Of a DNA stretch of 13,681 bases, positions 1 to 13,493 are shown one piece after another. The notes below the pieces were generated by a model that was not told the origin of the DNA, did no database searches, and saw only the letters and a list, made by a program, of their open reading frames with translations. A program made the translations under genes and the position numbers. Source of the stretch: Ophryocystis elektroscirrha (taxonomy: Eukaryota > Apicomplexa > Conoidasida > Neogregarinorida > Ophryocystidae). The stretch spans positions 1 through 13,681 of the forward strand of contig JAQIFP010000111.1 in the NCBI GenBank assembly GCA_030141585.1, written 5' to 3'. Positions within the stretch are counted from its first letter, which is position 1. Every line of letters starts with the position of its first letter.

Positions 1-392
1 GTAGTCGTTGGCGTGGTTGTTGTTGTGGTTGTAGTCGTTGGCGTGGTTGTTGTTGTGGTTGTAGTCGTTGGCGTGGTTGTTGTTGTGGTTGTAGTCGTTG
101 GCGTGGTTGTTGTTGTGGTTGTAGTCGCTGGCGTGGTTGTTGTTGTGGTTGTAGTCGTTGTCGGGGTGGTTGTTGTTGTAGTCGTTGTCGGGGTGGTTGT
201 TGTTGTAGTCGTTGTCGGGGTGGTTGTTGTTGTAGTCGTTGTCGTTGTCGGGGTGGTTGTTGTTGTAGTCGTTGTCGGGGTGGTGGTTGTGGTTGTAGTT
301 GTCGGGGTGGTGGTGGTTGTGGTTGTAGTTGTCGGGGTGGTGGTTGTTGTGGTTGTAGTTGTCGGGGTGGTGGTTGTTGTGGTTGTAGTTGT
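1..392. repeat. Coding tandem repeat (30-bp and 27-bp units)
   Basis: Five almost identical 30-bp units occupy 1-150; the fifth has one base change. They are followed by three 27-bp units (151-231), one 33-bp unit (232-264) and longer variants up to 392. All unit lengths are multiples of three. On the minus strand the 30-bp unit encodes TTTTTTPTTT, so the array is the mucin-like tail of the PAN gene. It is GC-rich against the rest of the window. Confidence 0.93.
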
Positions 393-1211
393 CGGAGAGA
401 GAACATAATCACATAGTCTGATTGGACCTCTTTGAGGGCAAAATTTGGGACCAGCATACATATCCCACGCCATAAATGCACAGCGAAAGCTTCCTTCACA
501 TCTCAAACAATTATATCCACCTCCGTTACACATGTGATTCATACCAAAGTTGCAATATTTTAGTTCATTGCCATTAGCTCCAAACATAGGTTGATTTCCG
601 GGCAGTTGTATACGAATTGCATTCTCTATATCATTCTTTGTTTTAAGTAAACAATTTGAACGAGCTCCTGGTAACTCAGAAGAGAATACATGAGTTTGAG
701 AATAATTGAAATAGACACAGTCTTCTGCCTAAAATAAACCATGACAACAAACTCAAAATGTAACTATTTAAAATCACTTATTTCTACTGAATTCATATAT
801 TTGTTTAAGAGAGTACAAATAACATACTTAATTTGTATTATTTTTCTTTAATGAAACATACCATCTGGCAAAGCAATTGACATTCCTTGATATCTTTAAC
901 CCGCAAAACAGCACCACTCAAATAATCATAATAAGAATACCCTGCAATCCATCGAGAATAACATGAATTAGATGCCGTGAAACCAGGTCTCATTACCGTA
1001 GTTTCGTATCTACAGTTTTGACCCAGAGAAGTCTCATTTTTACTCTAATTTTTAGCATATCTCTCAAAACTTCCTTTACCTGACAGATTTTTACACAGTC
1101 TTCATTTGTGAATTTTTCATTTACTGAAACATAATTTTTGCAATCGTTTAAGTTGGCATGTACAACCCGATTAAAACAAAAATAAGATATAATCCAAAAA
1201 ATGATGAACAT
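1..1211 (-). CDS. Secreted PAN/Apple-domain protein with Thr-rich mucin-like tail (3' partial)
   Basis: Exons 1211-1080, 1044-862 and 728-1 (runs off the left edge); introns of 35 and 133 nt; phases agree. The first ATG of the exon's open frame is at 1211. Residues 1-19 are a signal peptide (hydrophobic MFIIFWIISYFCF, cleavage likely after VVHA). An Apple/PAN core is seen around residues 72-115: ECQLLCQMAEDCVYFNY has the family pattern C-x3-C-x5-C-x2-F-x-Y. A second Cys-rich segment follows (CNFGMNHMCNGGGYNCLRC and more cysteines to about residue 213). An upstream EDCVKICQ may be a degenerate second Apple start. From residue 218 the protein is almost pure Thr with regular Pro. PAN modules bind carbohydrate or protein ligands and occur in apicomplexan micronemal and surface proteins; poly-Thr tails are typical O-glycosylation sites. 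An extracellular adhesin or mucin is inferred. The 3' end and total length are unknown. Confidence 0.8.
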
Positions 1212-1827
1212 AATATAAATCACTCAATTTTATTTAAGCATGCATAATTATTTTAGAATCTATTTATAATTATACATAAAAACTAAGATATTTTGTGATC
1301 TAAAATATTCTCTTATTATCTTTATTAACTAACAATTTCAGGAAATGTACATCAACAATTTGGCTGACAATGGCGATTTTTTAAGATCAATAGCTAGATT
1401 TATAAACTTTATTGATAAAAAATCATATTACACATGAATTTTAAAAAAGGCTTTATTTATTAGTATTTTTTAAAACTTAATCATACATAAAAATCATAAT
1501 AAAAAGAATTATAACATGGATTCAATGTATCATAAAAATTAGTGCAATTGAACTGAAAATACAATTTTATGGCTTACCTCAAAAACCTCATTGGAAACTA
1601 TAATAGTATTCCAATAGGTAAATTATATGATAAAAAGTTTAATTTGGATGATAAGTTGAATTATCAATTAGTTTGAGTATCATGCAAACAAAAAGTCATT
1701 AAGTACTAGGTTAATGCATGTATCAGACCACTTTTGATTTAGAAGTTTTCGGTACATAAATTAAATACTAGGTTACTTTATTCGTGACCTTTAATCATAT
1801 TACTTTTTATATTAAGTTATTAAAACC
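1212..1827. other. AT-rich spacer
   Basis: Lies between the start of the PAN gene and the 3' end of the 210-aa gene. I see no convincing exon on either strand. It must hold the PAN gene promoter and the terminator of the neighbour, but no specific motif stands out. Confidence 0.5.
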
Positions 1828-5950: not shown

Positions 5951-6300
5951 ATGGTACTGTTTTGTCCGACGTGTCATAAAATTTTGCTATTGCAAAAAGA
6001 TATAATGATAATATTTTATTGTTCAATGTGTCCTTACAAGCTGCCTGTATCAAGTCAAATGACTCGCACTATTTATTTAAAACCTAAAAAAAAAAGTGAA
6101 GCCATAGGCAATCAGATGGAACAGTTTGGATCTCGTACACAAGGTATGACATAATTTCAAATTATATAAATTTAGCTATATGCCCCAATTGTGGTTACAA
6201 TGAGGCATATTTCAATCAAATTCAGTTGAGATCTTCGGATGAACCAATGACAACTTTCTATATATGCTGTGAGTGTCAATTCCGCTGGAAAGAGCAGTAA
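5951..6300 (+). CDS. RPC11: DNA-directed RNA polymerase III subunit C11 (RPC10/POLR3K family)
   Basis: Exons 5951-6143 and 6176-6300, with a 32-nt intron that splits a codon; 105 aa, close to the roughly 108 aa usual for the family. The start gives MVLFCPTC, matching the family's opening. N-terminal zinc ribbon: C5, C8, C24 and C27 (FCPTC and YCSMCPY). C-terminal TFIIS-like zinc ribbon: C67, C70, C95 (or C96) and C98, with the conserved loop QLRSSDEPMTTFY carrying the acidic pair D86-E87 that supports RNA cleavage in this family. The protein ends FRWKEQ, like the family's RWRD end. Known role: transcript cleavage, termination and re-initiation by Pol III in the nucleus. All key residues are present. 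Confidence 0.95.
6144..6175 (+). other. 32-nt intron in RPC11
   Basis: GTATGA donor and AAATTTAG acceptor. Removing it restores the C-terminal zinc ribbon in frame; reading through gives TGA-less GMT and then TAA. This is the cleanest proof in the window of an ultrashort intron, because the protein family is certain on both sides. Confidence 0.93.
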
Positions 6301-9934: not shown

Positions 9935-12025
9935 TTAAGGGCAGCGTCGGAAAAAAATGCTTGCTCCGTGCTCTTCATAATCTAATTTTGATATAACGTA
10001 TGATTTAAAGATTTCAGTTGAACACAAAATGGAGGCTCCTATGAAACCTGCATTTCTTCGAGCAAAATTATCTTCTGTAATAATAAAACGCATATTCGCC
10101 TGATATTGAATATTATGAATCAATTAAATTACGAAGTTTGAAGACAGTGACTTTCGTTTTTCTTCATTGATTCTTTCCGAAAATCCTTTAAAAATAGAAT
10201 TGCCTCCAGTAAATACAATAGCATCCAAAAACTCCTTTTGTCTACAACTAACTTTAAAAAAAAAAAGATGGCAATTTACTTTGGTTTGTCTCCCATTTTA
10301 CTAAGACATTCTAATATTAGAGACTTTTTGAATTACTTACTAGAAACCATGGACTCAATACCATCAATTGAAGCTGTATTTACAAACTTTGAAGATAAAT
10401 TTCCACCAACAATTAAAGGCTCAACTAAACTAGAATTAAAAGATTCTAAGCAGAATTATTATTTTTACGTAATGAATGCACGTACGAGTGTTTATTGTAG
10501 TATTGTCTGGTAGTTTATATGTCGAGCTATAAATATATTAAATATAATTGTAGGACTGACGAAGATGAATCTTTTTCTTGACAGCAGTTATAAAAACACA
10601 GCTGGTTTTTTAAATCTTCTACATAAGATTCAACAGCCCAATCCCAATATGAACCAGACATCTATATTGTATGTATTTCATATAATTTTTCTTACAAATG
10701 TTTTATTGAATGGCCCTTTTGCAAAAGAGGGCTTTAAGTTAACATTTTTCATTTTATTGATAATATTCTGCAACTCTTTAGTCATGGCATATCCGCCATA
10801 ATTATGGGTTATAACGGACTTAGGTACTGTATAACCCTTATTAACAGCAGAAATAGTCGTTTGATCATATCCTGAATCCCACACTAAACCAGTGATTCTG
10901 GCACAACCAAATGCAGCCAGTGCTGGATGTTTGTAAAATGCTAATTCTTTAACCTATCAACAATTTCATAGTAGTTATAAATGTTACATTTATAGATTCG
11001 AATAAATGTTTGCTTAAAACATTCCGGTATTCTCTAAATTACCCAATCTTACAGTTAAAATCTGTATACGTGTTAGTTAATGCAGGCTCAATAATTAGAA
11101 CAGAGCTTTTTGACATATTTGATTTCGATAAATATTTTGCACCCGTTGTAAATACAAAGTCCAAGGCATTTTCAACAGCATCCGTATTCAAAACTGATTA
11201 TCATAAGTTATATTTTTCAAAACGATTTATAGCATATAGGCTTAGTGATATGTCAATTTTTAGTTTATAAAACTGTGCTCAAATTACTTTCTAATTTTTG
11301 AGTATTTTGATTAAATTGTACTGGTTTAATAATCTCTGTATCATTTACGGCTTCAAAAGGATTGACTGGATAAACAAAAACATTCTTCTTGGAATGTAGT
11401 GAACATTTAACAACTCCGACTGCCTGAACATCTTTGATAACATTTGAAGAACATCAGGTTCTTTGTTGATAATTCCAGTGTAATAACTCATTTATTTCTA
11501 AACTGTTGAATAGCTATGCAGATTATCCATTCAATTCACATTATTTAATTTATCAAGTAATTTGTTATATTATATGGTATACTATTTTATTCAATTTAAA
11601 TAATTTAACAAATTTTAATATATATATATATGTGGACAACAAATTACATATAAAATTATACATATATTGATTATACATAATAAAATTAATATGAATACGT
11701 AAACATATATATTTGACCAAATGCGTATTAACCACATTTTACCGTATATTTTAAAAATATGATATTATATAATTTGAGAAATATACAAAAATTTATCAAA
11801 TAATATACAAAAGCTGTCTTAGAGTGTATATATATATGTGAAATGTTGAAGCATATTTTTATACCGTAGGAATTTCAATTTGAGGATCTAATTCTCCTGC
11901 GCAGCCAACCCGAAGAGAAAGGCTACTCAGCTCAAGTATAATAGGACTGTCATTGTGGCATTCTGGTGTTAATTATACTAAACTATTATCTAAGCACCTG
12001 TTTCTGTTACAGTATCTTTAATCAT
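9935..12025 (-). CDS. ARP4: Actin-related protein, ARP4/BAF53-like
   Basis: Twelve exons: 12025-11998, 11962-11865, 11423-11288, 11193-11043, 11012-10988, 10953-10696, 10661-10561, 10526-10486, 10445-10341, 10310-10280, 10247-10133, 10099-9935. All 11 joins are in phase; 417 aa (conventional actin 375, ARP4 somewhat over 400). Actin landmarks in order: LRVGCAGELDPQIEIPTAVG (phosphate-1 loop and FPS-VG region), LFESIN, ARITGLVWDSGYDQTT (phosphate-2 loop, D172-S-G), YWDWAVESYVEDL, TYKLPD, AIVFTGGNSIFKGFSERI and DYEEHGASIFFRRCP. The CP ending and overall length favour ARP4, a subunit of SWR1/INO80/NuA4-type chromatin complexes, over actin (which ends CF). The phosphate-1 loop reads LELSSLSL instead of the Gly-rich form and actin's His161 position is Thr, so ATP hydrolysis is unlikely. 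The exact ARP subclass is less certain than the superfamily. Confidence 0.88.
11424..11864 (-). other. 441-nt AT-rich intron in ARP4-like gene
   Basis: Joins ...EIPT to AVGVV in phase and restores the actin FPS-VG region. It contains a TA tract at 11621-11631 and a shorter one at 11827-11838. An ATG inside it (11492-11490) starts a short frame that reads into the next exon, but this would lose the phosphate-1 loop, so I treat it as intronic. Confidence 0.75.
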
Positions 12026-12330: not shown

Positions 12331-13493
12331 ATGCAGAACACTATGATAAAAAATTTTCACAATTTCGATACATTCCATCAAGATATTATTTACGATATTT
12401 TGGGTAATACCATTACTCTGTACTCTATAGTCAATAACAAAAACCTAGCTAGATTCAACCGAATAGCATGTTTTAACGTAATGTATCACTGCAGAATTTT
12501 TGTTACCGGAAGAAATATTAAAATTGGGGCGACTAAATTATAATCTATATAAAATAGTTTTTAATCCTGATTTATGGGAGCAGCGTCTTTTAAAAAAATA
12601 TTACATTTATGATCTTCTTGAACCTGCACGTGGTAAACAAATTATTTCATAAACCCTCGTATCTTGATATACATATATATATATATATATGTAACTATAA
12701 TTGTTATGCGAATCGGCTTACACTTAGAATCTGATCTTTTTTATAATTCAGAGCTTATTGCTGATCGAAGGTCTAAAGGTAGAGTAGAATTAGCACATCT
12801 GAAAGGAAGTAGAAAAAAAGTAAATAAATATAATAATTCAACGTATAATAGTTTATTGTAAGAACAGTGTCTCTCGAGACAACTAATGCTGGTAAAAATG
12901 ATGGTGTACCAACGTCATGCTTACGTAATACGGCCTTGTTATTGAAACTCAATGAAGAAAAAATTATAAAGTAACGGAGTTACGTATTTTTCCTAATAGG
13001 CCAATAGATGCTATGAAGCATTCCTTCGAAATAAAGAATTAATTATAATAACCGAATATATTGGACCTAGTTTATACAAATACTTATCTTCAAGATCAAA
13101 CACAGCTAAATTAATAGAACCATGCATTATCAAGGTAATCAGTCAATTATTATAAAAAAAAAATCATCTAACTTGAACTCTAAATAAAGTCTATAGAGCA
13201 TTATGAAACAAACGTTTCAAGCCGTTAAATGTTTACATGAAAAAGGTTTAAATTTATTCTTATTCTTAATGACGTGATAGGAATTATACATCGCAATATA
13301 AAATTAGAGAATATTGTCCTTGGATCTTCAACGGATGAAAATGAGTTTTGCACTGTAAAAGTAATTGTCCACATTTTTGATACGTTCAACACAGCTTTGT
13401 GATTTAGCGCTCGGTAGATTTGTAGACATCCCTCTTGGTATTTATACCCCAGAAGTAATCACCTATTTGCTCTCACATAAGCTAGTACCTTAA
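12331..13493 (+). CDS. F-box / CDK-like pseudokinase fusion (proposed)
   Basis: Exons 12331-12403, 12495-12632, 12728-12819, 12852-12970, 13008-13134, 13197-13245, 13281-13360 and 13395-13493; introns 91, 95, 32, 37, 62, 35 and 34 nt; all phases agree; 258 aa. Residues about 14-60 fit an F-box (HQDIIYDILEFLLPEEILKL, then NPDLWEQRLLKKYY), the Skp1-binding motif of SCF ligases. Residues about 72-256 follow a CDK kinase fold: the PSTAIRE helix is DGVPTSCLRNTALLLKL, the hinge ITEYIG, the catalytic loop IIHRNIKLENI, and the activation segment CDLALGRF...YTPEVIT. Catalytic positions are replaced: VAIK Lys to R105, alpha-C Glu to N127, HRD Asp to N205, DFG to D229-L-A, and the Gly loop is degraded. 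The reading frame stops soon after YTPEVIT without the APE motif or most of the C-lobe, so either the gene is truncated or a further exon lies beyond 13484. The alternative is two genes: a 76-aa F-box protein (stop at 12652) and a kinase-like gene starting at ATG 12706. Confidence 0.7.
12633..12727 (+). other. 95-nt intron that decides the F-box/kinase fusion
   Basis: The GTAAAC donor at 12633 and TTAG acceptor at 12727 join ...LLEPAR to ESDLF in phase. The segment contains the stop TAA at 12650-12652, a TA microsatellite (12668-12690) and the alternative kinase ATG at 12706. If it is not spliced, the two halves are separate genes. Confidence 0.55.
12668..12690. repeat. TA microsatellite
   Basis: Alternating T and A with one early C, inside the proposed 95-nt intron. 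Confidence 0.8.

Follow-up and report, generated by a model that had tools for sequence, protein, structure and literature searches.

A putative F-box gene with a predicted CDK-like pseudokinase domain in Ophryocystis elektroscirrha

The F-box is the plug that couples proteins to a ubiquitin ligase, and F-box proteins differ chiefly in their recognition module. In cyclin F (FBXO1 of animals) the F-box is joined to a cyclin module that recognises SCF targets. Tribbles proteins, on the other hand, are CAMK-related pseudokinases that recruit COP1 through a tail.

Passages of published reports describe eighteen F-box proteins in Toxoplasma (PMC6685633), the apicomplexan F-box protein FBXO1 in Plasmodium (PMC10006092), SCF components in Plasmodium (PMC10006092, PMC10927090), and Phytophthora infestans CDKs that carry an integral cyclin domain (PMC3019232). 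No fusion of an F-box with a kinase domain was found in the literature at the level of titles and the opening parts of abstracts, and the kinase terms looked for are absent from the text of PMC9485057.

Gene model at the contig end

The window, i.e. the whole stretch of DNA that was analysed, is an entire contig of 13,681 bases (C12) from a genome of 8,008,172 bases in 118 contigs. Its GC content is 0.21 to 0.32 over most of its length, and tRNA and Rfam scans of it gave no matches. Several other features were observed in the same window. Positions 1-1223 (minus strand) hold Cys-containing exons followed by a Thr/Pro repeat with 13 copies of a 30-bp unit; the product resembles a secreted mucin-like protein, and its Cys-rich part gave nothing above the Pfam cut-off. 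A two-exon zinc-ribbon protein lies at 5951-6300 (plus strand; TFIIS-type ribbon, 68 bits) and resembles RPC10/RPC11, the small subunit of RNA polymerase III. A divergent multi-exon actin-related protein is located at about 9938-11491 (minus strand; Actin profile, 123 bits for hand-joined pieces).

At the end of the window, seven GT..AG introns give a spliced model with one open frame of 246 residues (738 coding bases, no stops; Table 1). The initial annotation had proposed that F-box exons and CDK-like kinase exons are joined in phase by the intron 12633-12727, with only a few residues between the F-box and the CDK fold. That this GT..AG intron would join the two parts in phase was confirmed in the sequence, and the gap is about 15 residues: the Pfam F-box match spans model residues 18-56, and global alignment sets the CDK1 start at about residue 72. 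The exons themselves had to be revised. An F-box-like stretch is present and needs the 91-nt intron 12404-12494, and the kinase exons are CDK-like and their N-lobe is best read with the 32-nt intron 12820-12851.

Table 1. Features of the proposed gene and of the adjoining contig end (window coordinates)
Feature	Position	Strand	Evidence
Exon 1: putative start codon and first F-box part, MQNTMIKNFHNFDTFHQDIIYDIL	12331..12403	+	spliced F-box alignment
Intron 1, 91 nt	12404..12494	+	percentile 99 for the donor (of 734), 55 for the acceptor (of 585)
Exon 2: remaining F-box and linker, EFLLPEEILKLGRLNYNLYKIVFNPDLWEQRLLKKYYIYDLLEPAR	12495..12632	+	F-box-like match, codon score
Intron 2, 95 nt, putative F-box/kinase junction	12633..12727	+	in-phase join, site strength
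Exon 3: degenerate kinase N-lobe (beta1, former glycine loop, beta2)	12728..12819	+	within Pkinase match; codon score 0.20
Intron 3, 32 nt	12820..12851	+	outscores rival 12809-12867
Exon 4: beta3 (FIVR replacing VAIK-type motif) and PSTAIRE-type helix (PTSCLRN)	12852..12970	+	alignment, Pkinase profile
Intron 4, 37 nt	12971..13007	+	site shared with the genome's own CDK1 (CDK1 position 65, phase 2)
Exon 5: beta4-beta5, hinge, alphaD	13008..13134	+	alignment, Pkinase profile
Intron 5, 62 nt	13135..13196	+	site shared with the genome's own CDK1 (CDK1 position 106, phase 0)
Exon 6: alphaE	13197..13245	+	alignment, Pkinase profile
Intron 6, 35 nt	13246..13280	+	spliced alignment; both sites weak (percentiles 66 and 20)
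Exon 7: catalytic loop HRNIKLEN, without the HRD Asp	13281..13360	+	alignment, Pkinase profile
Intron 7, 34 nt	13361..13394	+	spliced alignment, site scores
Exon 8: CDLALG replacing DFG motif; activation segment to YTPE	13395..13454	+	alignment
Read-on to stop, VITYLLSHKLVP, probably intron read through	13455..13493	+	CDK similarity ends at residue 166
9-bp satellite TATTATATA, 19.2 copies, at contig end	13507..13681		repeat scan

Splice-site tables were derived from 124 machine-called, unfiltered introns of other kinase genes in the genome, and percentiles were calculated over the 734 GT and 585 AG sites of the window. Of these 124 called introns, 46 (kinase loci L032-L071) measure 30-36 nt and the rest of the distribution has a long tail; the introns of the model measure 32, 34, 35, 37, 62, 91 and 95 nt. 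Spliced alignment of the window with human CDK1 as the query returned introns 4 to 7 (12971-13007, 13135-13196, 13246-13280 and 13361-13394), and a milder gap cost added intron 3. With the genome's own CDK1 as the query the first three of these were retained and one donor shifted to 13355; upstream, this path takes another intron of 283 nt from 12585, which counts against the junction 12633-12727. The 283-nt path disrupts the F-box and is without support from the Pfam scores.

Other splicings were also rejected. In the N-lobe, removal of 12809-12867 gave 75.0 bits with the Pkinase profile versus 81.3 for 12820-12851, and exon 4 extended into VTELRIFPNRPIDAM gave 61.3 bits, rising to 73.8 once 12971-13007 was removed. 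The codon score is positive in frame for 6 of the 8 exons.

The F-box-like and CDK-like parts

The F-box part taken alone scores 19.3 bits with the F-box-like profile (E 0.00097), below the cut-off of 24.3, and 12.3 bits with the Pfam F-box profile (cut-off 20.5). Joining exon 1 through intron 12404-12494 raises the F-box-like score by 7 bits (from 12.2 to 19.3); this intron is one of 10 open splicings and was compared by score with some of the others. Alternative joins giving versions of 70 and 101 residues had no Pfam match at E 1. The initial annotation had suggested that both profiles be run on the spliced protein, and there the Pkinase match stood, whereas the F-box-like score fell to 16.4 bits, below the cut-off. 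The codon score of exon 2 is 0.14 in frame and below 0 in both other frames (the 99th percentile for noncoding 70-codon stretches is 0.04); that of exon 1 is -0.13, i.e. not distinctive, and higher in another frame. The best solved-structure match of the F-box part is FBXO4, with an E value of only 0.85.

The local background was estimated by spliced alignment of three F-box queries to 284 overlapping chunks, cut from the window and from 41 loci of 173,589 bases in all, most of them kinase loci. With the consensus F-box the window scored 51, by way of intron 12404-12494, and came second behind a locus (L070) with 59, the next value being 42. With FBXO4 it was at the top (56, next 46), by a path through exon 2 alone, and with Skp2 it was ordinary (38, a value equalled or exceeded by 14 of the 284 chunks). 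The F-box-like sequence thus exceeds local chance with the consensus and FBXO4 queries but not with Skp2. Exon 2 is thus well supported and exon 1 less so. At exon level, L070 (C58:10892-11011, minus strand) alone in the genome matches the Pfam F-box families at E 0.001, and its F-box stands at the start of a long Asn/Ser-rich frame.

The similarity of the second part to kinases exceeds chance. In the fused model the Pkinase match starts at residue 87 and scores 80.1 bits (cut-off 31.7), covering profile positions 12-148 of 263; the alignment z value is 13.9 from 200 shuffles, and the top solved-structure match is CDK1 (E 5.4e-14). The sequence is identical to human CDK1 at 43 of 163 aligned positions and to the genome's own CDK1 at 41 of 160 (about 26%), with no stop or frameshift. 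No glycine loop (GxGxxG) is present, the PSTAIRE helix reads PTSCLRN with the alphaC Glu replaced by Asn, HRD has become HRN, DFG has become DLA, and under the favoured splicing Arg replaces the beta3 Lys. The domain does keep the Asn of the catalytic loop, the DFG Asp and the Thr of the T-loop. Since the glycine loop, the alphaC Glu, the HRD Asp and, under the favoured splicing, the beta3 Lys are lost, the domain is predicted to be a pseudokinase, a prediction that would favour a binding role.

The own CDK1 (locus L039) has intact catalytic motifs in its spliced reading. Its best solved-structure matches are 1v0b, 1v0o and 1ob3 (478 bits), then 3niz and 2qkr (447 bits), these being CDKs of Plasmodium falciparum and Cryptosporidium. 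Among its best 120 of 7277 matches in the protein database most of the named ones come from alveolates (Vitrella, Platyproteum, Filipodium, Chromera, Besnoitia, Cardiosporidium, Plasmodium and dinoflagellates), together with two high-ranking plant-named entries. Taken by themselves, these matches point to a probable apicomplexan or a near relative.

The introns tie the kinase part to CDK1, two positions being in common with the own CDK1. Among 13 other kinase loci, an intron at CDK1 position 106 phase 0 was found in one (the own CDK1), at position 65 phase 2 in two (the own CDK1 and L071), and at position 143 phase 0 in one (L067); the model introns at 24 phase 0 and 123 phase 1 occur in none of the 13. 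The tblastn search of the genome points against a CDK1 origin: its strongest match (55.5 bits) is to a MAPK-like gene at L071, and the own CDK1 is missing from the matches at E 0.01. The pseudokinase prediction and the CDK1-linked introns go beyond the initial annotation, as does the placing of the C-lobe off the contig, which is treated below.

The putative junction and the missing C-lobe

At the junction 12633-12727, the donor ranks in the 98th percentile (734 GT sites) and the acceptor in the 76th (585 AG sites). Of 845 ORFs used as controls, each 45-90 codons long, 568 have some in-phase GT..AG join, so the in-phase join by itself is no evidence; a join of sites as strong, leading into at least 31 open codons, was found for 36 of the 845, a count that takes in true exons and perhaps also the window's own.

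Intron 2 contains both the stop of the F-box frame (12650-12652) and an in-frame ATG (12706), and the locus could accordingly be read as two neighbours, with an F-box protein of 76 residues ending at this stop and, from this ATG on, a divergent CDK-like gene (MRIGLHLESDLFYNSELIADRR...). The ATG shares the reading frame of the kinase and might be the start of a separate gene, its context is not unusual beside 19 presumed starts, and a kinase beginning there scores 81.3 bits versus 80.1 for the fused model, which is a length effect; the frequency of in-phase joins among the control ORFs also speaks for two genes. However, a mere 53 bases would separate the two genes on the same strand, the 76-residue protein would be left without a recognition domain, and the junction donor is among the strongest in the window. 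We therefore regard two neighbours as unlikely, and it is quite likely, judged from the sequence, that the F-box part and the CDK-like part form a single gene. A CDK1-like start exactly at ATG 12706, placed by eye from equal CDK1 length under the splicing 12809-12867, would have spoken for two genes but was gone under the better-scoring splicing.

At the other end of the single-gene model, the similarity to CDKs extends no further than CDK1 residue 166 in the spliced alignment. The donor at 13455 is in the 96th percentile and falls at CDK1 position 163 in phase 0, a site at which two of the 13 other kinase loci (L067, L069) also have an intron, and the contig ends in a satellite. The end at 13493 given initially is thus probably not the end of the protein; the stop 13491-13493 is probably a read-through into an intron truncated by the contig end.

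The end of another contig (L072, C22:90300-92349, minus strand) carries a CDK-like C-lobe that lacks an N-lobe, with more open stretches beyond. Its Pkinase match (164-211) is 236 bases from the contig end, with the 5' side facing that end; in spliced alignment the piece covers CDK1 167-295, and two candidate exon starts in phase 0 were recognised by eye. When the window kinase and the C22 piece were joined, they scored 130.6 bits as one stretch, little above the 81.3 and 44.1 bits obtained separately. From these features it is rather likely that the C22 piece is the continuation of the window's kinase, a lead that came from comparing some of the contig ends.

Proposed mechanism and comparison with known systems

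The reading that best fits the sequence is the one suggested by the initial annotation, an SCF adaptor whose recognition module derives from a CDK. A single gene would encode an F-box and, behind it, a CDK1-like domain that is catalytically dead; the F-box would bind Skp1 within the SCF ubiquitin ligase, and the pseudo-CDK would capture proteins that partner with real CDKs, whether cyclins or others that bind CDKs, and these would then be ubiquitinated and destroyed. Profile searches of the genome gave two exon matches for Skp1 (on C46), two matches for cullin (on C80) and three for Cyclin_N, two of them above the cut-off. The single transcript, the binding of Skp1, the partner and its degradation are steps that we infer, and for the mechanism as a whole we tentatively estimate a probability of roughly 45%. 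A recognisable cyclin-binding helix had been the initial argument for a cyclin target; the helix reads PTSCLRN, which weakens this guess, and cyclin binding by such an altered PSTAIRE helix is doubtful.

A real fusion might also put its F-box to another use, either making the CDK-like protein short-lived or holding Skp1 outside the SCF. Self-ubiquitination and roles outside the SCF are both known for F-box proteins, and no bound partner is visible in the sequence, both of which count for this explanation; nothing speaks directly against it, but a CDK-like sequence that was retained while its catalytic residues were lost suggests a binding role, and we hold the other uses to be improbable. That the locus is a relic, i.e. 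a decaying CDK copy beside a chance F-box-like stretch, is very unlikely. In favour of it, catalytic residues are lost, the reading on this contig runs to a stop and the F-box is below the Pfam cut-offs, yet the CDK-like part is free of stops and frameshifts at its low identity to the own CDK1, and both the codon scores and the F-box control argue against decay.

In simulations of neutral decay (substitutions without insertions or deletions) of the own CDK1 to at most 30% identity, none of 2000 runs stayed stop-free (mean 10.7 stops, fewest 2). It is therefore unlikely that the CDK-like part is a decayed copy, and its frame was probably kept by selection over most of its history. If the two parts are one gene, the dead kinase may be a bait used to destroy the partners of the real one.

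A relative with the same order of F-box and kinase was not found in the protein database searches: an early kinase model had 147 candidates, none at E 0.001, and the fused model had 597, with four kinases at E 0.0027 to 0.076. The database includes alveolate proteins, but the search depends on shared five-residue words, so this absence is weak evidence. It is conceivable, though on balance rather doubtful, that an alveolate lineage made a CDK1-type gene into an F-box-fused dead bait that would trap cyclins or other CDK partners for destruction by SCF, the mirror image of cyclin F.

Of the known systems, the F-box proteins of Toxoplasma (PMC6685633) and Plasmodium FBXO1 (PMC10006092) are likewise apicomplexan; a kinase domain is not mentioned in the available passages of these papers. 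The CDK-cyclin proteins of Phytophthora infestans similarly combine a protist CDK domain with a cell-cycle partner domain, but this domain is a cyclin and not an F-box, a term absent from PMC3019232 as far as its text was available. CDK1/PfPK5-type CDKs, including the own CDK1, are close to the locus in that its best solved-structure match is CDK1 and two of its intron positions recur in the own CDK1, whereas these CDKs have intact catalytic motifs and no F-box. Tribbles resemble the proposed protein in that a dead kinase domain would carry targets to a ubiquitin ligase, but they are CAMK-related and reach COP1 by a C-terminal tail, whereas here a CDK-like domain would act with an F-box.

If true, a CDK-derived recognition module would be a new kind of F-box module, an example of a pseudokinase recruited for protein destruction and a natural counterpart to engineered degraders, and the cell-cycle control of a little-studied alveolate would be opened to simple tests. 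Cyclin F has in common with the locus an F-box and a cell-cycle recognition module. Unlike cyclin F, the fused model has no match to a cyclin domain in Pfam; the module of cyclin F is a cyclin whereas the one proposed here is CDK-like, and the roles would therefore be mirrored.
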